Of a stretch of DNA of 29,214 bases, positions 2,910 to 18,096 are shown one piece after another. Below the pieces are notes generated by a model. The model saw only the letters and a program-made list of their open reading frames with translations. It was not told the origin of the DNA and did not search any database. The DNA lies in IMG/VR virus record IMGVR_UViG_3300007516_000094, positions 1 to 29,214 of that record. One strand, given 5' to 3'. The translations under genes were made by a program, and so were the position numbers. Source of the DNA: a virus. Positions within the stretch are counted from its first letter, which is position 1. Every line of letters starts with the position of its first letter.

Positions 2910-2965
2910 GTGTTTACAAATTTTGGTGTCGCGACACAGTTGGAGAGGTGTGGCAGGAATAATTT

Positions 2966-3049
2966 GGGTTTTGTCCCTATCGACGGTCTGTAAAACCGTT
3001 GCTTAAAGATAGGAAGCAGCAAGTGGTGCGTTACCACCAAGACCCACCA
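2966..3049 (+). tRNA. tRNA-Tyr(GTA), D-arm-reduced
   Basis: The acceptor GGGTTTT pairs with AAGACCC, then A73 and encoded CCA. The anticodon stem ACGGT/ACCGT is perfect, with loop CTGTAAA (GTA). A long variable arm closed by TTGCT/AGCAA fits Tyr. Only about 10 nt separate the acceptor from the anticodon arm, so no normal D-arm can form, and the T-loop is TGCGTTA instead of TTCRA. Identity is fairly clear; function with this shape is uncertain. Confidence 0.65.
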
Positions 3050-3055
3050 AATTTT

Positions 3056-3131
3056 GGGCTATGATTGAGCTGGGGTTCTTGTCTGCTTTGCAAGTAGATA
3101 TCGGTGGGTTCGATTCCCACATGGTCCACCA
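3056..3131 (+). tRNA. tRNA-Ala(TGC)
   Basis: Acceptor GGGCTAT/ATGGTCC (two wobble pairs), anticodon arm TCTGC-TTTGCAA-GTAGA, T-arm GTGGG-TTCGATT-CCCAC, A73 and encoded CCA. The D-stem is wobble-rich (TGAG/CTTG). Confidence 0.85.
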
Positions 3132-3853: not shown

Positions 3854-3962
3854 GGGTATATGTCGGTACAGCTAATGCACGGTCAGTAGCCGTCGGAGCA
3901 TCAATATGAAATAGCTATATTTTATAGGGCCTGTTTGGGTTCGACTCCCAATATATCCACCA
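3854..3962 (+). ncRNA. Oversized tRNA-like RNA (109 nt)
   Basis: A complete 7-bp acceptor stem GGGTATA/TATATCC, a canonical T-arm TTGGG-TTCGACT-CCCAA, A73 and encoded CCA, but about 65 nt in place of the usual D- and anticodon arms. That interior contains hairpins (ATGC-ACGG...CCGT...GCAT; CTATA-TTT-TATAG) and no anticodon loop I can assign. It is either an expanded tRNA or a tRNA mimic. Confidence 0.55.
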
Positions 3963-3968
3963 TATTAT

Positions 3969-4105
3969 GTGTTATGAAGGATCCACGTAGAAGGCGATCT
4001 GGAAGTCAGAGGTAATATTACTGAGGACTTGATCGGCGTGACATTTAATTGATGTCGTCGAGAAATCCATTTATGTGCGCGGTTCGATTCCGCGATAATA
4101 CACCA
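3969..4105 (+). ncRNA. Oversized tRNA-like RNA (137 nt)
   Basis: Acceptor GTGTTAT/ATAATAC, T-arm CGCGG-TTCGATT-CCGCG, A73 and CCA are intact. About 90 nt lie between, including a hairpin CTTGA...TCGAG that encloses GACAT-TTAATTG-ATGTC. No standard D- or anticodon arm is evident. CTTGA...TCGAG recurs at 4115 and 4276. Confidence 0.55.
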
Positions 4106-4111
4106 GTTTCA

Positions 4112-4187
4112 GGCTTGACATGAAATGATTTCATGCTGTCGAGAATTACAAGACAGTTTAGGTGGTTTAATTCCACACTAGCCCACC
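4112..4187 (+). tRNA. Degenerate tRNA, possibly Val(TAC)
   Basis: D-arm TGAA-ATGAT-TTCA and a perfect anticodon stem CTGTC/GACAG, but an 11-nt loop ending ATTACAA (TAC if 4 nt are extra). T-arm GTGG-TTTAATT-CCAC. Two acceptor mismatches and no clean CCA. The D-loop A19 and T-loop U56 match the covariation seen in Thr, Met and Cys. Confidence 0.4.
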
Positions 4188-4341
4188 GGTTTCGAGATAG
4201 ACGATGATATTAGAGTCCCAAGTAGCGGATGTCGGTGAACCGACCTTAGTTTGACCGTGAAGTATGGTGTAAGACTTGATCATTCGAGACAATCTTCCGA
4301 GTCCCTTCAATAAGGATAGGTAGGCACTCGGATTTAGTTAC
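4188..4341 (+). ncRNA. Structured stretch, tRNA-derived or unknown RNA
   Basis: No ORF. Hairpins GTCGG-TGAA-CCGAC (near 4229), CTTGA-TCAT-TCGAG (near 4276) and a long CCGAGT...ACTCGG stem (near 4300-4336) enclosing CCTT-CAAT-AAGG. No acceptor/CCA pair could be assigned. It is part of the transcribed RNA array. Confidence 0.35.
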
Positions 4342-4430
4342 ACAAGTAGCAGCATGAGCGTTGGGTTTAAATGGAAGTCGAGAATCCACAGACGCAAAGA
4401 TATAGGTTCGATTCCTGTCTACTTGTACCA
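4342..4430 (+). tRNA. tRNA-Ser(CGA), atypical
   Basis: Acceptor ACAAGTA/TACTTGT plus an extra G-C pair, T-arm ATAGG-TTCGATT-CCTGT, A73 and CCA; 89 nt. An anticodon arm TGGAA-GTCGAGA-ATCCA gives CGA, with a mismatch at 31-39. The D-region is enlarged and not clearly paired. Isotype is tentative. Confidence 0.5.
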
Positions 4431-4437
4431 GTTTTAA

Positions 4438-4492
4438 AGTATGCGTTCAGCAAATATAAAAATTCAAATGATAATTGAAAAATAAGCATACT
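4438..4492 (+). ncRNA. CAGC-family small RNA, copy 1
   Basis: A perfect 7-bp closing stem AGTATGC/GCATACT, the TTCAGC motif after the left arm, an A-rich linker, an inner TTCAAA/TTGAA hairpin and GATTTTAT after the right arm. Same plan as copies at 5398, 5932, 14789, 15191 and 15575. It ends at the 3' end of the minus-strand gene below. Confidence 0.5.
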
Positions 4493-4496
4493 GATT

Positions 4497-5033
4497 TTAT
4501 AACATTAGATGTTGAAACTTAGTTTTAACTTCTTCCCAAGTCATGTCAAACTTTCCTGGCCGAAGGCTAAAAGCATATCGACCATTATTGCCTGACGGCA
4601 AATGTGGTATAGATGCATTTACTAAATATGTACCTATTGTGAGGTTGTATTCTTTTGCAGGTAGTTCATCAGTTTTATAGACATATATGAGATAACCCTC
4701 TTCGTCTACTTTGCTAATTGAAGATTTTATCTGTGACTTCTCCCAATATTTTAATGTTCCGACGCCGGAGTAGATCCAATTTATTCCCCATGCTAGTTTG
4801 TCTGTTGAGTCGACGTGTAATCGACCAATAAAATTATTTGTCTTGTGAAATATTAGAACTTGTTGCCATTCGATGTTATTCCAGGTCAGAAATTCCTCTT
4901 TTATTAGAGTTTTAGCGGGAACAGATTTGTATGTGATTCTGTCCGTATTAATGAAGAGTTTTTCTTCTACACCTGGCAGAAGCATATCAGTTAAAGCAGG
5001 TGCTGTTATCGAGTATACGTATTCGTTAGTCAT
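4497..5033 (-). CDS. Hypothetical protein (178 aa)
   Basis: An intact soluble protein beginning MTNEYVYSITAPALT, with Trp-rich C-terminal half (MTWEEVKTKFQ) and no recognised domain or signal peptide. Two consecutive ATGs are present; the second (5033) is chosen because the GATAAATA element lies exactly 4 nt before it, as in other genes here. It is the only minus-strand gene in the tRNA region and is flanked by RNA genes on both sides. Confidence 0.65.
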   Translation of the reverse strand: MTNEYVYSITAPALTDMLLPGVEEKLFINTDRITYKSVPAKTLIKEEFLTWNNIEWQQVLIFHKTNNFIGRLHVDSTDKLAWGINWIYSGVGTLKYWEKSQIKSSISKVDEEGYLIYVYKTDELPAKEYNLTIGTYLVNASIPHLPSGNNGRYAFSLRPGKFDMTWEEVKTKFQHLML

Positions 5034-5045: not shown

Positions 5046-5119
5046 GCGGGTTGGGATAGTCCCCCATTGGTCTCATAAGCCACATCGGAAAGAAGGAGCG
5101 TTACCTTCGCCCGCATCCA
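5045..5119 (+). tRNA. Initiator-like tRNA-Met(CAT)
   Basis: Acceptor CGCGGGT with GCCCGCA leaves C1 opposite A72, the hallmark of bacterial initiator tRNA, while positions 2-7 pair. Anticodon loop CTCATAA (CAT); T-stem GAAGG/CCTTC with an unusual loop AGCGTTA; U73 and CCA. The D-arm is shrunken (GGGA-TAG-TCCC). The anticodon stem lacks the full run of three G-C pairs of a classical initiator. Confidence 0.65.
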
Positions 5120-5295: not shown

Positions 5296-5397
5296 AATAT
5301 ACCGATGTACGGATGATGGGGCTGCATGGTGTGGCCACTACACTGTCAATGTAGATGTTCAGGCCAGATCGTTACTGGTATCATCCGCCAATTTTGA

Positions 5398-5451
5398 AGA
5401 GTACCTGCAGCCACTAAAAACTTCACCGCAAATGAAAAAAATGTGTACTCT
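5398..5451 (+). ncRNA. CAGC-family small RNA, copy 2
   Basis: Closing stem AGAGTAC/GTACTCT, motif CTGCAGC, an A-rich linker, hairpin CTTCA-CCGCAAA-TGAAA and GTTTTAG. It is about 80% identical to copy 3 at 5932; the two copies flank the gene pair 5490-5925. Confidence 0.55.
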
Positions 5452-5461
5452 GTTTTAGTTT

Positions 5462-5925: not shown

Positions 5926-5931
5926 TTTTGA

Positions 5932-5988
5932 AGAGTACCTACAGCAAACTAAAAATTTTCACTGTGAATGAAACCAAATGTGTACTCT
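5932..5988 (+). ncRNA. CAGC-family small RNA, copy 3
   Basis: Closing stem AGAGTAC/GTACTCT, motif CTACAGC, hairpin TTTCA-CTGTGAA-TGAAA and GTTTTAT. The hairpin loop has the form of an anticodon loop (GTG), perhaps by chance. It lies 10 nt before tRNA-Thr. Confidence 0.55.
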
Positions 5989-5998
5989 GTTTTATTTT

Positions 5999-7370: not shown

Positions 7371-7466
7371 GATGAAAAAGTCCAGTCGGTTGCTGGTACG
7401 AATCAATAAGAACTGTTCTTGGCGATCCAGGAGTAGTCCGATGCAGTTCGATTCTGCATTTCATCT
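7371..7466 (+). ncRNA. Oversized tRNA-like RNA (96 nt)
   Basis: A perfect acceptor GATGAAA/TTTCATC, D-arm CCAG-TCGGTTG-CTGG and T-arm TGCAG-TTCGATT-CTGCA, but the anticodon/variable part is about 45 nt with an AAGAAC/GTTCTT hairpin and no assignable anticodon. No CCA is encoded. Confidence 0.5.
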
Positions 7467-7534: not shown

Positions 7535-7564
7535 ACACATAAGAATAACAGGGTAATGTCACTT

Positions 7565-8209
7565 ATGTTTTATTTAATTTATAAAATAACAAATAAATTT
7601 TCTGGTAAATTTTATATTGGTACCCATAAAACTAATAATAAAAACGACAGTTATATGGGTTCCGGCAAATATTTAAATTATGCTATACAGAAGTATGGTC
7701 TAGAAAATTTTACTAAAGATATATTATTTGAATATGATAATTCAGAAGATATGTTTAATAAGGAAGCAGAAATTGTAAATGAAGATTTTTTAGCAAGCGA
7801 AAATACATATAATCTTAAAAAGGGTGGTAATGGTGGGTTCGGGTATATAAACAACCTTGGTATAAATTTATACGGAAAAAACGGCCATCCTGGTTATGGA
7901 GGAAATAATCTTGTCGATGGTGCATATATAAAAGACAAATTTATAAACGAAAATAAATGGAATGACTATCTTGTAAAATTATCACAAATTCATAAGCAAA
8001 CATATATAAATGGACGAATACCATCATTCACTAATAGGAATCACACAATAGAATCTAGAAATAAGATGAGTATATCTAGTAAAGGAATTGGTTGTGGTAA
8101 GGATAACAGCCAATTTGGAACCTGTTGGATTACAGATGGTATAAATAATAAAAAAATAAAAATTAATGATTTAGATAAATGGCCAAATTGGAAACGCGGT
8201 CGCAATTAA
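7565..8209 (+). CDS. GIY-YIG homing endonuclease
   Basis: Starts MFYLIYKITN, followed by FYIGTHKTNN, the conserved YMGSGK and KYGLENF, and KEAEIVNEDF carrying the catalytic Glu: a clear GIY-YIG domain in residues 1-95. The C-terminal half carries a helix rich in basic residues and ends with NSQFGTCWITDG, a DNA-binding tail common in phage Seg-like enzymes and shared with the protein at 13080. An ATG 9 nt upstream (7556) is possible, but the family normally begins at the MFYLIYK strand, and AGGG lies at better spacing for 7565. Very AT-rich. Located between tRNA-like RNA and tRNA-Trp. Confidence 0.85.
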   Translation: MFYLIYKITNKFSGKFYIGTHKTNNKNDSYMGSGKYLNYAIQKYGLENFTKDILFEYDNSEDMFNKEAEIVNEDFLASENTYNLKKGGNGGFGYINNLGINLYGKNGHPGYGGNNLVDGAYIKDKFINENKWNDYLVKLSQIHKQTYINGRIPSFTNRNHTIESRNKMSISSKGIGCGKDNSQFGTCWITDGINNKKIKINDLDKWPNWKRGRN

Positions 8210-8297: not shown

Positions 8298-8373
8298 CCG
8301 ACCTTGGTGAAGGTGGTCCTCACGCTTGTCTGAAGAACAAGAGAACTCCGTTCGAAACGGGGAGGTCGGGCCA
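8298..8373 (+). tRNA. tRNA-Phe(GAA)
   Basis: Acceptor CCGACCT/AGGTCGG, D-arm GTGA-AGGTGGTCC-TCAC, anticodon arm CTTGT-CTGAAGA-ACAAG, T-arm CTCCG-TTCGAAA-CGGGG, CCA. C1-G72 and G73 are unusual for Phe. Confidence 0.85.
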
Positions 8374-8379
8374 AACGTT

Positions 8380-8395
8380 GCATGTGGCCACATGC
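8380..8395. repeat. 16-bp perfect palindrome
   Basis: GCATGTGGCCACATGC is fully self-complementary, 6 nt after tRNA-Phe. It could be a processing hairpin or a protein site. Confidence 0.6.
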
Positions 8396-8400
8396 GAACA

Positions 8401-8441
8401 GAAGTATATAGCTACCCTCTGAAGGTAAGAGTCACTACTTC
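8401..8441 (+). ncRNA. Possible armless tRNA-like element (41 nt)
   Basis: GAAGTA/TACTTC closes a 41-nt element with one anticodon-like arm, TACC-CTCTGAA-GGTA, whose loop has the correct U33, CTG and A37 for a Gln tRNA. There is no D- or T-arm and no CCA. The remaining sequence to 8516 holds ATCGAT/ATCGAT and GGACA...TGTCC hairpins. Chance is possible. Confidence 0.25.
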
Positions 8442-8750: not shown

Positions 8751-8892
8751 TGATTCTTTAGCTCAGATGTTAGAGCACTGTCGCAACCGCTCATTGTTGA
8801 TGTCAGACGTTTGATCAAGCGTCACCGCTCCACAATGATGTATAGGCTTCAGGGGTCGCAGCATTAACAAGCTGCATGAGTCACCGATTTAT
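8751..8892 (+). pseudogene. tRNA-derived fragments
   Basis: A canonical 5' tRNA part (TTTA, then D-arm GCTC-AGATGTTA-GAGC at 8761-8776) has no matching 3' acceptor. It is followed by a CATTGT...ACAATG stem enclosing the self-complementary GACGTTTGATCAAGCGTC, and a GCAGC/GCTGC hairpin. Looks like a broken or rearranged tRNA. Confidence 0.4.
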
Positions 8893-11121: not shown

Positions 11122-11215
11122 GGGCCGTAGAAGGTGTAAAAGGGTAACACACAAGTCACTGTTATATATTTGCTGGCTTATGTCAGTTGTGGTTCGAATC
11201 CGCCACGGTCCACCA
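11122..11215 (+). tRNA. Class II tRNA, isotype uncertain
   Basis: Acceptor GGGCCGT/ACGGTCC, D-arm GTGT-AAAAGGGTA-ACAC, variable arm CTGGC-TTAT-GTCAG, T-loop TTCGAAT, A73 and CCA. The anticodon stem CAAGT/ATTTG encloses an 11-nt loop CACTGTTATAT, so no anticodon can be fixed. Two extra bases precede the D-stem. Confidence 0.55.
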
Positions 11216-11617: not shown

Positions 11618-11785
11618 ATGTTTAAGAATTTATTTGAAAGTTTAAAAGGCCTGTTCTCAGGCAAGTATATAGACCAGCGTATGGATAAGTTTGTACAGTC
11701 GGGTAATCCACAAAGCGAAGAAGATGTAATACGACTACGAAAGGCATACTGGAATAATGCTACAAATAAAAGAGCAGGATATTGA
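11618..11785 (+). CDS. Small phage protein A of a tandem pair (55 aa)
   Basis: Begins MFKNLFESLKGLFSG; ATG 11618 follows AAGGAAT, better than the upstream ATG at 11597. Contains FVQSGNPQSEEDVIRLRKAYW, a motif shared with the next gene (FIIAGNPQNVGDVDQLEKEFQ). This F-x4-NP-x4-DV-x2-L-x4-[YF] pattern occurs in many tiny T4-like phage proteins of unknown function. Its TGA is 1 nt before the next ATG. Confidence 0.7.
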   Translation: MFKNLFESLKGLFSGKYIDQRMDKFVQSGNPQSEEDVIRLRKAYWNNATNKRAGY

Positions 11786-11786
11786 T

Positions 11787-11966
11787 ATGTTTAAAATATT
11801 TATGACATCACTGGCAAAATTTTTCAAAGTTCCGTCGGTCCAAGACGATCTCGAAGCATTTATAATTGCAGGCAATCCACAAAACGTAGGCGATGTCGAT
11901 CAGCTTGAGAAAGAATTTCAAAGAAAGAAAGCCCATACATGGGTCGGCACACATTTAAATAGATAA
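11787..11966 (+). CDS. Small phage protein B of a tandem pair (59 aa)
   Basis: Begins MFKIFMTSLAKFFKV; paralogue of the preceding gene over its full length. A GCAGGA sequence precedes the ATG. The stop is 1 nt before tRNA-Arg. Function unknown. Confidence 0.7.
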   Translation: MFKIFMTSLAKFFKVPSVQDDLEAFIIAGNPQNVGDVDQLEKEFQRKKAHTWVGTHLNR

Positions 11967-11967
11967 T

Positions 11968-12040
11968 CTCCCATCCGTCGGATACGGTGACTGGTCTTCG
12001 AAACCGGTTTAGGAAAGTTCGAATCTTTCATGGGGGACCA
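11968..12040 (+). tRNA. tRNA-Arg(TCG)
   Basis: Acceptor CTCCCAT/ATGGGGG, 3-bp D-stem GTC/GAC, anticodon arm CTGGT-CTTCGAA-ACCGG, T-arm GAAAG-TTCGAAT-CTTTC, A73 and CCA. Confidence 0.9.
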
Positions 12041-12045
12041 TATAT

Positions 12046-12053
12046 GATAAATA
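12046..12053 (+). promoter_or_regulatory. Late promoter GATAAATA, 7 nt before start codon
   Basis: Precedes the ATG at 12061 by only 7 nt with no ribosome site. Confidence 0.6.
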
Positions 12054-12060
12054 GTTTACT

Positions 12061-12732
12061 ATGACACACCTATCTATACGACATTACATCAACTTGGTAG
12101 AATCTGCAGAATTTGCTGCCACAACAGAGGCCGAGGGCGACGCCGAGGGGTTACCGCATCTCACTTCTACAATGGCGAAAAATATTTCTGATCAGATCGA
12201 CACTGAAGGCCCACACGCTATTTCTAAAAGTGTTGAATGGGGTGACGGTGCATCCAGAGAGCTTATTCGAAAAATACAAAACATGCTAGACGATTATTCA
12301 GCTGCTGTAGATGAATCGGCAGCATGGAAAAGAAAAGAAGGTAAAAGTAAATCCGGCGGCCTTAATAGCAAGGGTGTGGCCAGTTACCGTAAGGAACACC
12401 CGGGCAGCAAGTTACAAACAGCAGTAACTACCAAACCCAGCAAACTGGACCCCGACAGCAAAGATGCTAAACGGAGAAAAAGTTTTTGTGCTAGAATGGG
12501 TGGCATGAAAGGACCGTCGAAAGACGATAACGGCAAGCCCACTCGAAAAGCATTAGCATTAAAGAAGTGGAATTGTGAAAGCATTGCTGACCTGGGCATG
12601 CTGATTGAATCTGAGATTCAGGAAGCAAAGCAAAGACTAGACCCCAGTTGTTGGAAAGGATACCGAAAGGCCGGCACCAAAATGAAAAATGGTGTAAAAG
12701 TTAACAACTGCGTGCCAACCAACAAAACTTAA
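12061..12732 (+). CDS. Phage protein with RKSFCARM motif (DUF5872-like)
   Basis: A 223-residue basic protein. The middle (AWKRKEGKSKSGGLNSKGV, then RRKSFCARMGGMKGP and GKPTRKALALKKWNC) is a conserved block found in many large phages and some bacteria, with two invariant Cys. The C-terminus (LDPSCWKGYRKAGTKMKNGV, then NNCVP) is a second conserved phage block. Both are of unknown function; the basic charge suggests nucleic-acid binding or packaging into the head. The N-terminal MTHLSIRHYINLVES could be a capsid-targeting helix. Start set by the late promoter. Confidence 0.75.
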   Translation: MTHLSIRHYINLVESAEFAATTEAEGDAEGLPHLTSTMAKNISDQIDTEGPHAISKSVEWGDGASRELIRKIQNMLDDYSAAVDESAAWKRKEGKSKSGGLNSKGVASYRKEHPGSKLQTAVTTKPSKLDPDSKDAKRRKSFCARMGGMKGPSKDDNGKPTRKALALKKWNCESIADLGMLIESEIQEAKQRLDPSCWKGYRKAGTKMKNGVKVNNCVPTNKT

Positions 12733-12893: not shown

Positions 12894-12898
12894 GTTAT

Positions 12899-12979
12899 GT
12901 CTTCTCAACATGAGATGTGTAGGTTCGGAGGTAACGTTACCGAACTTGGAGTGCGGTGTAATACCGACGGGAGACGCCA
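12899..12979 (+). ncRNA. tRNA-like RNA with large internal hairpin
   Basis: Acceptor GTCTTCT/GGGAGAC, G73 and CCA; T-arm-like CGG-TGTAATA-CCG; the centre is one long hairpin, GTTC...GGTAAC/GTTACC...GAAC, plus TCTCA-ACA-TGAGA. No anticodon loop. 81 nt. Confidence 0.45.
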
Positions 12980-13079: not shown

Positions 13080-13793
13080 ATGAACTATTTATACCAAATC
13101 ACCAACCTTATAAACAACAAAATCTATGTAGGTGTTCATAAAACAAATAATATAGATGATGGTTATATGGGAAGTGGAAAAGTTATAGTATCGGCTATAA
13201 AGAAATACGGAATAGAGAATTTCAGAAAAGATATTTTAGAATTCTTTGATACATACGATCTTGTCTTGCAAAAAGAAACAGAAATAGTTACCGAAGAATT
13301 TCTGCAAAGACCCGATGTGTATAATCTCCGTAAAGGAGGTTCCGGCGGATTTGATTATATAAACAAGACAGGCCTTGCGTCTGTCGGCCGTGTAAAAGGA
13401 TATAATAATCGAACGAAAGAATCATATGCTAAAATGTCAGAAGGCGGCAAGAAGGGTGCTGCTTCACTTAATATTTCAGGTAACAGAACACCCGGTAATG
13501 CATCTCGTGCAGATTACGCCAGGTTGCATACGCAAACAAAAGATGCTAAAATTAAAAGAAAGAAGACATTAGCTGAAATAAATCATCAGCAAGGCACTAA
13601 GAATTCCCAGTTTGGAAAGTGCTGGATTACAGATGGTATCGAGAGTAAAAAGATAAAAAAAGAAGAATTAGAAAAATATGTTTCCGAAGGATGGAGACAA
13701 GGAAGAATAATGCACCGTTCGACTTCTGGTGAGGTCACCAGCCTTTCACGCTGGGTAGAGGGGTTCGAAACCCCTACGGTGTACCAGTTATGA
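13080..13793 (+). CDS. GIY-YIG homing endonuclease overlapping tRNA-Glu
   Basis: A 237-residue protein with a GIY-YIG domain in residues 1-95 (MNYLYQITN, IYVGVHKTNN, YMGSGK, KKYGIENF, KETEIVTEEF) and the NSQFGKCWITDG tail seen in the 7565 protein. The family usually ends near GWRQGR. Here the frame has no stop there and runs ~25 codons through the whole tRNA-Glu gene to TGA at 13791-13793, so the last residues are translated tRNA sequence. This is likely the scar of insertion next to the tRNA. Leaderless by promoter position. Confidence 0.85.
   Translation: MNYLYQITNLINNKIYVGVHKTNNIDDGYMGSGKVIVSAIKKYGIENFRKDILEFFDTYDLVLQKETEIVTEEFLQRPDVYNLRKGGSGGFDYINKTGLASVGRVKGYNNRTKESYAKMSEGGKKGAASLNISGNRTPGNASRADYARLHTQTKDAKIKRKKTLAEINHQQGTKNSQFGKCWITDGIESKKIKKEELEKYVSEGWRQGRIMHRSTSGEVTSLSRWVEGFETPTVYQL
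13712..13786 (+). tRNA. tRNA-Glu(TTC)
   Basis: Acceptor GCACCGT/ACGGTGT, D-stem GAC/GTC, anticodon arm CCAGC-CTTTCAC-GCTGG, T-arm AGGGG-TTCGAAA-CCCCT, A73 and CCA. Canonical, and entirely inside the 3' end of the endonuclease ORF. Confidence 0.92.
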
Positions 13794-14138: not shown

Positions 14139-14160
14139 GGAAGATTTGCAGAGTGGATAC

Positions 14161-14248
14161 AGAAAGTTAAGCTAATGGGATTAGCCGCAACCTGCTAAGT
14201 TGTTGGCTCGTGAAAACGGGTGCGGGTCGGGACCGCAACTTTCTGCCA
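14161..14248 (+). tRNA. tRNA-Ser(GCT)
   Basis: Perfect acceptor AGAAAGT/ACTTTCT, G73, CCA; D-arm GCTA-ATGGGAT-TAGC; anticodon arm GCAAC-CTGCTAA-GTTGT; variable arm CTCG/CGGG; T-arm TGCGG-GTCGGGA-CCGCA with an atypical T-loop. Confidence 0.85.
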
Positions 14249-14738: not shown

Positions 14739-14788
14739 AGAAATATGGTTCGGTAATATTATTAGTAAGCATAAAGATAACAAAAACT

Positions 14789-14863
14789 AACACACCTCAG
14801 CACTCCAATATATCAAAGCACATTAACTGTTAAGGTTAATGCCTGGTTACTGATTAGTGTGTT
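14789..14863 (+). ncRNA. CAGC-family small RNA, copy 4 (divergent)
   Basis: Closing stem AACACAC/GTGTGTT, motif CTCAGC after the left arm, an A-rich linker, hairpin CATTAAC-TGTTAAG-GTTAATG, then TCTAT. Longer right-hand linker than other copies. Confidence 0.4.
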
Positions 14864-14901: not shown

Positions 14902-14975
14902 GGGCTACAAACTTTAAAGTGAAGTATTAGGCTTTTAACCTAAGAAACGGGGGGCAGTACCCCGGTGGCCTACCA
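14902..14975 (+). tRNA. tRNA-Lys(TTT)
   Basis: Acceptor GGGCTAC/GTGGCCT (G1-U72), D-stem ACTT/AAGT, perfect anticodon arm TTAGG-CTTTTAA-CCTAA, T-stem CGGGG/CCCCG with an atypical loop GGCAGTA, A73 and CCA. The D-loop lacks GG. Confidence 0.82.
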
Positions 14976-14979
14976 TAAT

Positions 14980-15189
14980 ATGACAAGCAGAACTATTGAT
15001 ATCAAGTGTATAGGTTGCAGAAAATATTTATTTTCTATACTTCCAGACAGTAACGCTGAGTTAGATAAGATACATCACTGTAATAAGAAAGCCTGCAAAG
15101 AAAAAGCAACTTTCGAAATATTGAAAGGTCCCGAACCATCAATAACCTGGGAAGAGATGATGAGTATACTTTCGGGCAAAAGAATTTAA
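14980..15189 (+). CDS. Small Cys-rich protein, zinc-finger-like (69 aa)
   Basis: Begins MTSRTIDIKCIGCRKYLFSI; the CxxC...HHCNKKAC arrangement suggests a zinc ribbon of the Com-like type seen in phages. ATG 14980 is used because the upstream in-frame ATG is inside tRNA-Lys. No strong ribosome site. Function unknown. Confidence 0.6.
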   Translation: MTSRTIDIKCIGCRKYLFSILPDSNAELDKIHHCNKKACKEKATFEILKGPEPSITWEEMMSILSGKRI

Positions 15190-15190
15190 A

Positions 15191-15253
15191 AGAATGCTTC
15201 CAGCGAACCAACACAACTTCAAAACTTTTATCTTTGAAAAGAAACAGCATTCT
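15191..15253 (+). ncRNA. CAGC-family small RNA, copy 5
   Basis: Closing stem AGAATGC/GCATTCT, motif TTCCAGC, A-rich linker, TTCAAA/TTTGAA hairpin, then GATTTAT. Closest to the copy at 4438. The following 15254-15377 has small hairpins (TATCAT/ATGATA) but no gene. Confidence 0.5.
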
Positions 15254-15377
15254 GATTTATATAATAGGTTATCATGACACAAAATTGAAATCATAACAAC
15301 TGAATATCATTCCTATGATAGATATAGTGACGAGCATTCACTTATAGTGGAAAGTATAACAGGTGTTACAAGTTAAT

Positions 15378-16150: not shown

Positions 16151-16361
16151 TTTTGATTACCCGAACAGTCGCTGGGAGAAATCCTTGAGGAAAGTCGGGC
16201 TGTATAGAACAGGACTTGTCGATCTGTGGAAGATGGCGTAGCAATACAGGGGTAATGTCGGGAGCAGACAGCGAAGCTGTCTGCTAAATCTCGATGCCAT
16301 CATTTTTACCACAACGACTCCGCAGCAGCACAAACAAGTTCGAGTCTCGTATCTCGCGCCA
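16151..16361 (+). ncRNA. RNase P RNA-like structured RNA (candidate)
   Basis: ACAGTCGC (16165-16172), GAGGAAAGTCGGGCT (16187-16201) and ATAG..CAGG (16204-16213) match, in order, the P2, CR-I/P4 and following segments of bacterial RNase P RNA, with one base missing in the conserved 16-mer. Downstream helices: GATGGC/GCCATC, TCGGGA/TCTCGA and a 9-bp GCAGACAGC-GAA-GCTGTCTGC hairpin. CGACT near 16314 could pair with AGTCG. The 3' P4 strand and CR-II/III are not evident, so it may be a reduced or decayed copy. It ends with a T-arm-like segment, GCCA and a T-run. Confidence 0.4.
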
Positions 16362-16745: not shown

Positions 16746-17426
16746 ATGATTTACTATGTCTATGCGTATCTTAGGAATAAAGATTCAATCTCATCACACT
16801 CCGGCAGCCCTTACTATATAGGAAAGGGAAAGAATTTAAGAGCGTGTGAATATCACAGAAATGTTCCCTTGCCGAGTAATAGAAAAAATATTGTGATATT
16901 AGAATTTAATCTTACTGAAGTAGGTGCGTTTGCGATTGAACGCAGGATGATTAAATGGTATGGAAGAAAAGATTTAGGAACAGGGATATTACTAAATAGA
17001 ACAGATGGCGGCGATGGCGCAAGTGGGCACATTGGCCAGATTCCGTGGAATAAAGGCAAAAAGGGCTTGCAAAAAGCCTGGAATAAAGGTATGCCACATA
17101 CCGCTGAAACAAGAAAGAAGATATCAATTTCCGGTACAGGCAGAAAACAATCGACAGAAACTATTGCGAAAAGATCCATTTCGATGCTTGGTAAAAATAA
17201 GGATAAGGTACGATCTGATGAACTGAAACAACAATGGGCTAATTCTCATAGAGGTAAAAGACATTCGGACGAACATAAGCAGAATATATCGGCCGCGCTC
17301 AAAGGTAGAGACGGCAGGGTTTGGACAGATGAACAAAAACAAAAACAATCTGTAGAAAGAAAGGGGAAATCTTGGACTCTTGCAAGGAGAGAAGCACAAT
17401 CTAAAAGAAAGGAACGAGATGAATAA
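16746..17426 (+). CDS. GIY-YIG endonuclease with NUMOD3 repeats, inserted in release factor gene
   Basis: A 226-residue protein: MIYYVYAYL and PYYIGKGK form the GIY-YIG motifs (residues 1-30), with an Arg at AFAIERRMI and a catalytic-type Glu. The rest is a chain of basic NUMOD3-like DNA-binding motifs ([33 protein letters not shown]). It sits between a short remnant of the release factor start and the main release factor ORF, whose ATG overlaps its last codons by 8 nt. Confidence 0.85.
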
Positions 17427-18096
17427 TCAACGAAAAATTATAGAAATCCGTGCCGCAGAGGGTGGAGACGATAGCAAACTATTCGTAGCTGACTTGGCAC
17501 AAGCATACCGCAAACACGCTGACAGAGTCGGCTGAATTAATCGTATAACAAAATCCTTACCTGGTGAAATCTTTATAGAGGTTGTTGGCGCGGATCTTGT
17601 TCAACTACAAAATGAATCCGGCGGTCACAGGATACAACGTATACCGCCAACAGAGAATAAAGGTAGAGTTCACACAAGTACGGTGACAGTAGCTATTACA
17701 GATCCGAATATACAGAAAAAAACGTATAAAGATGCTGACTTTAGTGTTAGTTGGTTCAGTGGCACAGGTGCTGGTGGGCAACACCGCAATAAACACCAAA
17801 ATTCGTGCAGAATAACACACTTACTGACTGGTTTAGTGTCTACTGCACAGTGCAGATCAAGGCAAAACAGTCTAGAACAAGCTAAATCGTCTTTAGTGGA
17901 AGAGTTAGATGCAAAGTACAACAAACTTGCAAACAACGAGATTGCTATAGACAGAAAGCAACAAGTTGGCTCCGGAATGCGTGGAGACAAGATAAGAACT
18001 TATCGTTTTCAGGATGATGTCGTGAAAGACCACATTACTGGTAAGAATGGAAGTGTTAAACAAGTCCTAAAGGGACATTTTAACCTATTATGGTAA
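17419..18096 (+). CDS. prfA-like: Peptide chain release factor, RF1-like, with in-frame UGA
   Basis: Read through one in-frame TGA (17533-17535), this is a 225-residue class I release factor. [14 protein letters not shown] opens domain 2, RIPPTENKG carries a P-x-T tripeptide (residues 76-78) of the RF1 type (UAA/UAG), and [11 protein letters not shown] has the GGQ (119-121) that triggers peptidyl-tRNA hydrolysis. The N-terminal domain 1 of cellular RF1 is absent. The TGA falls where family members have the conserved Trp of a G-W pair; other Trp codons in the gene are TGG. AAAGGAAC is the ribosome site. Could be programmed read-through, Trp recoding or a decaying gene. Confidence 0.7.

Follow-up and report, generated by a model that had tools for sequence, protein, structure and literature searches.

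A 137-nt RNA gene at positions 3969-4105 (plus strand) of the window, by which we mean the whole stretch of 29,214 nucleotides analysed here, was found to belong to a conserved family of alanine-type tRNA-like RNAs (ATL) which keep the acceptor stem, the T arm and the alanine identity elements of a tRNA and have no anticodon arm. Being without an anticodon, this RNA probably acts on the translation machinery instead of decoding codons. The reading favoured here, to which we give a probability of just under one half (about 0.48) on the strength of sequence comparison, is that ATL is an ORF-less tmRNA-like RNA which would be charged with alanine and would engage or titrate the factors of trans-translation. 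Phage tRNA arrays are usually tallied with tRNA finders and taken as codon supply. A conserved, predicted-chargeable array RNA that has no anticodon would let the phage act on ribosome rescue or on tRNA-based defence.

The ATL gene and its surroundings

The window is an entire IMG/VR record from a large uncultured phage, in which phage genes flank a 15-kb tRNA array. ARAGORN called 24 tRNAs in this array, and the virus separately encodes a normal tRNA-Ala (3056-3131, ARAGORN). The initial annotation had pointed to oversized tRNA-like elements at 3854-3962, 3969-4105 and 7371-7466 (109, 137 and 96 nt) with intact acceptor and T arm, and this description holds, as each has an acceptor paired at 7/7 positions, a T arm paired at 5/5 and a TTCGA loop. 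All three, the 3969 element included, were missed by ARAGORN and by the Rfam tRNA model, and the first two encode CCA. The elements at 3854, 3969 and 4111 lie consecutively on the tRNA strand with gaps of 5-6 nt, read from the sequence, as in a processed tRNA transcript.

The ATL RNA opens with the acceptor 5' strand GTGTTAT (3969-3975), which pairs with 4095-4101 and places G3 opposite U70. A D-like region without a D stem, GAAGGATC (3976-3983), follows; it has GG and such a region was read in all members. The 5' strand of helix P2, CACGTAGA (3984-3991), forms 8 bp with the 3' strand TTTATGTG (4070-4077), which stands immediately 5' of the T arm. Between the two strands the minimum-energy fold places hairpin H1 (3995-4035) and hairpin H2 (4040-4056, GACAT/ATGTC), both with a hairpin at the same place in 5/5 core members, and then comes the conserved GAGAAATCC (4060-4068), identical in the same five. 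The T arm CGCGG-TTCGATT-CCGCG (4078-4094, read in the sequence) and the acceptor 3' strand ATAATAC with A73 and the encoded CCA (4095-4105) complete the gene. The D arm and the anticodon arm with 7-nt loop of a canonical tRNA are absent from the fold, and an anticodon arm sought inside 3969-4105 could not be recognised. ATL thus shares the acceptor identity elements and the T arm with canonical tRNA-Ala, and differs from it in having neither D stem nor anticodon arm.

Conservation of the ATL family

With a pattern taken from the array's short tRNA-Leu, 21 further loci were fetched from tRNA-array phages, in contigs of up to 383 kb, and later scans added more. Scanning for the sequence that adjoins the T arm of the 3969 element gave the ATL relatives L054, L081, L061 and L069, which together with the window form the core of five sequences. 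These four and the window element were also among the top real matches of a structure-only descriptor (7-bp acceptor, T arm, CCA, 95-175 nt, helix adjoining the T arm), as were L014/L021 and L028; the other real matches were mostly neighbouring tRNA pairs, and a control of 2.1 Mb of dinucleotide-shuffled sequence gave one match. L208 joined through the covariance model R2. A sister contig (IMGVR_UViG_3300007722_000019) is 99.95% identical to the window over 13.8 kb; contig L009 is near-identical to the window and represents the same virus, and therefore adds no independent evidence.

The resulting eight sequences (window, L054, L081, L061, L069, L014/L021, L028 and L208) fall into four lineages, with relatives in at least three phage lineages other than that of the window. 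At the L061 and L069 loci no tRNA genes were seen; the L061 contig encodes a DnaB-like helicase and a DnaD-like loader of phage families. All eight measure 137-142 nt, none being near 75 nt, and all carry G3-U70, A73, CCA and the T arm. Their order is constant: 7-nt acceptor strand, stemless D region (8-13 nt, with GG), P2, H1, H2, P2 partner, T arm, acceptor, A73 and CCA. In the seven tested with the descriptor scan (7/7) the P2 partner ends 0-4 nt before the 5-bp T arm and takes the place of the anticodon arm. The five core members also have CACG..GGC and CGAGAAATCC in common.

In the core alignment, which is built from these five sequences alone, acceptor pairs 2, 4, 5, 6 and 7 show two-sided changes while G1-C72 and G3-U70 are invariant. 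Pairing reaches 89.8% of cells against 75.4% after shuffling, and covariation is 0.47, compared with 0.18 for the shuffled and no more than 0.16 for the slid alignment; the counts for the T stem are lowered by one gap that is misplaced in L054 and L081. R2 gave 114-138 bits for its five source sequences (128.7 for the window), 38 for L014/L021, 37.8 for L208, whose acceptor has two U-U mismatches, and 32 for L028, with ordinary tRNAs at up to 34. For the L014/L028/L208 branch, then, kinship shows in the architecture but is not clear in the sequence.

These data bear on two explanations that need no new RNA class. The first, that the odd elements are decaying tRNA genes in a repeat-rich array, would fit the elements at 3854 and 7371, for which no relative was found and which may be decaying, and it gains from the T-arm-only similarity of the 4342 element, the missing CCA of 7371 and the CCG end of the gene at 4111-4188. 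For 3969 decay is excluded, since in distant phages the acceptor pairs change on both sides and G3-U70 stays invariant, and as an account of the whole set it is hardly credible. The earlier argument against simple decay hence stands for 3969, where a conserved form and acceptor covariation are seen across lineages, and does not extend to 3854 and 7371. The second explanation is that ATL is a tRNA-Ala precursor that loses an insertion of about 60 nt through some process. Its acceptor and T arm are of the tRNA-Ala type, and a small anticodon-loop insertion does occur in the neighbour at 4111-4188. However, a conserved internal anticodon arm with an Ala anticodon is missing, the interior is kept in all eight sequences and is itself conserved in GAGAAATCC and P2, which makes a precursor very improbable. 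The removable insertion once suggested for these genes was accordingly not borne out for 3969; for 4111-4188 a small anticodon-loop insertion is supported by its relatives, with a loop of 7 nt in L028 and a longer one in L081.

The family was also sought more widely. No ATL was found among cultured phages with blastn, nor in an R2 search with strict filters of 399 genomes from one Burkholderiales order. A scan of genome contigs for the GAGAAATCC pattern gave no recognisable ATL among the 80 matches examined; it brought up Leu and Ser tRNAs, archaeal tRNAs and tmRNAs, in which the same letters occur by coincidence.

Alanine identity

G3-U70 is the main determinant for the bacterial alanyl-tRNA synthetase and suffices on minihelices. 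Among the tRNAs of the same phages, 26 of 27 tRNA-Ala combine G3-U70 and A73, as against 2 of 769 others. As this combination is present in 8/8 ATL sequences, ATL is predicted to be chargeable with alanine. The same pair and A73 are found in the elements at 3854-3962 and 11122-11215, neither of which has relatives.

A chargeable RNA that does not decode could serve as alanine donor in a non-ribosomal reaction, through a tRNA-dependent ligase or transferase of phage or host. The predicted charging would suit such a role, yet the ATL-bearing phages differ widely in gene content, and we regard it as distinctly improbable. Somewhat better placed, although still unlikely, is a decoy or spare against tRNA-targeting defence, absorbing nucleases, toxins or modification enzymes that read the acceptor or elbow, while the anticodon loop, the target of most cutters, is absent. 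That phage tRNAs escape defences which cut tRNA is known, with altered anticodon loops as the means in some (PMC10264068, PMC11555353), and the same array holds tRNAs with 11-nt anticodon loops (4111-4188, 11122-11215). A decoy would nevertheless leave unexplained the invariant G3-U70 and A73 of all members as well as the conserved P2 and GAGAAATCC.

Relation to tmRNA and proposed function

The tRNA-like domain of tmRNA has the same plan as ATL, namely an alanine acceptor with an elbow and a long helix like P2, the anticodon arm being absent. G3-U70, A73 and the T arm of this domain are present in 8/8 ATL sequences, and the absence of a D stem together with a long P2 joining the T arm was seen in 7/7 in the descriptor scan. 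Other hallmarks are missing. No tag reading frame was found in 3969-4105 and ARAGORN called no tmRNA in the window; pseudoknots were not seen, reading through the 137 nt giving two hairpins only; and the models RF00023 and RF04321 had no match at 3969 and none above cut-off on the ATL relatives. The tmRNA D-loop motif GGAUUCGACGGG had an edit distance no better than in shuffles except in L014 (4/2000), and descent from tmRNA as argued from the D loop was dropped because the motif is not significant. That ATL works like a tmRNA is thus better supported than that it is one.

The same viruses do carry a tmRNA. A permuted two-piece tmRNA lies on the sister contig of the window (L228 341-702, RF04321, 87.9 bits, predicted tag ANANTNELNMSAFAEMVAA), and each of the six records above 300 kb that were searched has an RF04321 permuted tmRNA. 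Those of L225-L228 are of betaproteobacterial type with the tags ANANTNELNMSAFAEMVAA, ANDESYALAA, ANDSQFLMVA and ANDEQFLMVA. The permuted form (RF04321/RF01850) shares with ATL the G3-U70, A73, T arm, lack of D stem and P2; it differs in having a tag ORF and the D-loop motif, whereas ATL scores below all tmRNA models. Two-piece tmRNAs have been reported in tens of phages, mostly aquatic (PMC9004378), and tmRNA with SmpB in huge phages (PMC7162821). No SmpB gene was found in ten of the phage records, so that host SmpB would be needed.

A precedent is the tmRNA of mycobacteriophage DS6A, which consists of the tRNA-like domain (TLD) only (PMC4131195; also PMC11915505). A molecule like it strongly inhibits tmRNA whether or not it can be charged, perhaps because SmpB is titrated (PMC4131195). 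The DS6A RNA, which is likewise phage-encoded, and the CDS-less tmRNAs of plastids and mitochondria have in common with ATL an alanine-type tRNA-like domain and no tag frame (PMC4131195, PMC11915505). Compared by description, DS6A has barely more than the TLD, whereas ATL has 137-142 nt with P2 and two hairpins; two further differences are that ATL has its place in tRNA arrays, both in the window and in most of its relatives, and that tmRNA models do not recognise it. It is the tmRNA-like plan, the virus's own permuted tmRNA, the DS6A precedent and the inhibition by a similar molecule that lead us to favour the ORF-less tmRNA-like reading, and with it the tRNA mimic among the possibilities raised by the initial annotation for 3969.

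Under the ORF-less tmRNA-like reading, a stable RNA of about 137 nt would be cut from the tRNA transcript, as the neighbouring tRNAs are. Host alanyl-tRNA synthetase would charge it through the acceptor (G3-U70, A73, CCA) and the T-arm elbow. The helix beside the T arm would lead into the two-hairpin domain, as P2 exits the tRNA-like domain of tmRNA, with no tag frame. EF-Tu and possibly SmpB would bind the alanine-charged RNA, which could then compete with tmRNA on ribosomes or tune it during infection. More generally, and tentatively, at odds below even, large phages may pair a tag-bearing permuted tmRNA with a second RNA that has no ORF, is charged with alanine and is dedicated to controlling ribosome rescue, and the arrays of these phages may hold further unrecognised tRNA-derived classes (ATL, the OS-A family and the 4190-4332 RNA, the latter two described below) which standard tRNA finders miss.

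Comparison with the ATL family would also help with two stable RNAs of T4 that have long been puzzling, rnaC (species 1, 139 nt) and rnaD (species 2, 119 nt); these too are of tRNA-like size and lie within a phage tRNA cluster. The T arm of rnaC is CCGGG-TTCGAAT-CCCGG; unlike in ATL, the acceptor, as far as one can be drawn, has A3-U70 and U-U mismatches. When R2 was run on the T4 tRNA region (L059), only ordinary tRNAs were listed and rnaC was unmatched.

Other unusual elements of the array

The 109-nt element at 3854-3962 (plus strand; G3-U70, A73, CCA encoded) has two predicted internal hairpins. In the 96-nt element at 7371-7466 (plus strand) an 11-bp hairpin replaces the anticodon arm and TCAA stands in place of CCA; no independent relative was found. 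The element at 4112, first taken for a degenerate oversized case, turned out to be a gene of normal length (4111-4188, plus strand) related to the tRNA-Val(UAC) of L028. Its 11-nt anticodon loop, GAGAATTACAA (4141-4151), reads as GAGA + AUUACAA where the L028 relative has a normal 7 nt, which supports a small loop insertion; in the L081 relative the arm is longer and may be drawn as a stem interrupted by a bulge of some 13 nt.

At 4190-4332 (plus strand) lies a further RNA of about 143 nt, structured and conserved. Its relatives L026 (minus strand, 8336-8436), L047 (minus strand, 14781-14856) and L053 were recovered, with part of it in L032/L056/L058, all within phage tRNA arrays. The conserved blocks are GATAGACG .. 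GAGTCCCAAGTAGCG .. CGTGAAGTATGG .. CGAGACGACAACTA, and the closing stem varies on both sides (window TTTCGAG/CTCGGA, L026 TTCTTGAG/CTCAAGAA, L047 TTCCTAAG/CTTAGGAA, L053 TTTTGAGA/TCTCAAAA). Rfam scans gave no match for it. A 212-nt element from 4219 was dropped, as its 5' half belongs to this RNA. The recurring CTTGA..TCGAG hairpin proposed before is not one motif, the likeness of its three unrelated contexts being coincidental: at 3969 the letters straddle two hairpins, near 4115 they span the D and anticodon arms of a tRNA, and near 4276 they form part of a helix in the 4190-4332 RNA.

The set of odd genes as first listed was incomplete; a tRNA-Tyr without D arm (2965-3049) also belongs to it, as do 4342-4430, 8758-8887, 11122-11215 and 12897-12979. 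The 89-nt element at 4342-4430 (plus strand) has an 8-bp acceptor, a T arm and a possible 11-nt loop GAGAATCCACA; it shares T-arm similarity only with other loci, and an exact-pattern search gave no match. The 130-nt element at 8758-8887 and a 91-nt one in L010 (3143-3233) are tRNA-like, and each stands between the His and Cys tRNAs; their D arms are the same and their interiors very different. In tRNA-Tyr(GTA) of the window (2965-3049) and of L011, L013, L026 and L030 the D stem seems to be replaced by a helix enclosing the anticodon arm. tRNA-like genes with non-standard T loops (for example AGCGTTA, GTCGGGA, GGCAGTA, TGTAATA), missed by ARAGORN, comprise Met, Ser-GCT, Lys and one other (window 5046-5117, 14160-14248, 14903-14973 and 12897-12979; L034, minus strand, 3865-3937). 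Moreover, a set of tRNA-like sequences of 108-115 nt with long anticodon and variable arms was noted at L030 8259, L013 10693 (reverse complement), L051 4424 and L011 14038, one of them with CAT in the loop.

The OS-A family and a repeated intergenic element

A second family of oversized tRNAs (OS-A), unrelated to ATL and absent from the window, is present in more than 30 phage records. The 23 distinct sequences sampled have 115-123 nt; the acceptor, the D arm and the T arm are normal, and the anticodon arm follows the pattern ATTCC-AU-NNN-AA-GGAAG with a hypervariable triplet (GUC in 12; also GUU, UCU, UCC, UCG, CAC, CAU, UAC (two) and CAG; two have longer loops). Between the D arm and the anticodon arm all carry a conserved insertion, some 40 nt long, that holds a covarying hairpin and a CAGCA motif. 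The OS-A model R1 gave members 89-137 bits against at most 45 for ordinary tRNAs, and the gene was exactly single-copy in 29 of 37 records searched, with two found by the model alone; examples are L016:4640-4757 and L013 (minus strand). In the window the best R1 matches were ordinary tRNAs (at most 36 bits), without the OS-A insertion with its hairpin and CGTTCAGCA, and the 3854 element was rejected as a member with 17 bits. Among cultured phages, blastn gave only a 46-nt 3' match in one record.

The OS-A insertion appears to resemble, in rearranged order and with recurring parts, a repeated intergenic element of 60-65 nt that is common in the arrays. This element has a closing stem with GTTCAGCAAA and ends in CTGTTTTA (window 4436-4497, 5390-5455, 5927-5990, 15183-15255 and 15567; L010 10495 and 10594), and its Rfam match, to Dictyostelium class I RNA, stays below threshold (28-31 bits).

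Further observations

Other RNAs were noted in passing. L010 has an RNase P class A RNA at 11761-12105 (67 bits, E 5e-19, under the cut-off of 100), and at 16160-16330 the window has what appears to be the 5' half only of an RNase P RNA, followed by an orphan tRNA 3' half. A GOLLD RNA (201 bits) lies within the tRNA array of a related phage (L010 7888-8305). By eye, three frames between the tRNAs of the window (7556-8209, 13080-13793 and 16746-17426) look like GIY-YIG homing endonucleases, and the frame at 17428-18096 is release-factor-2-like and has a TGA in frame near 17534 that might be a frameshift site of the prfB type.
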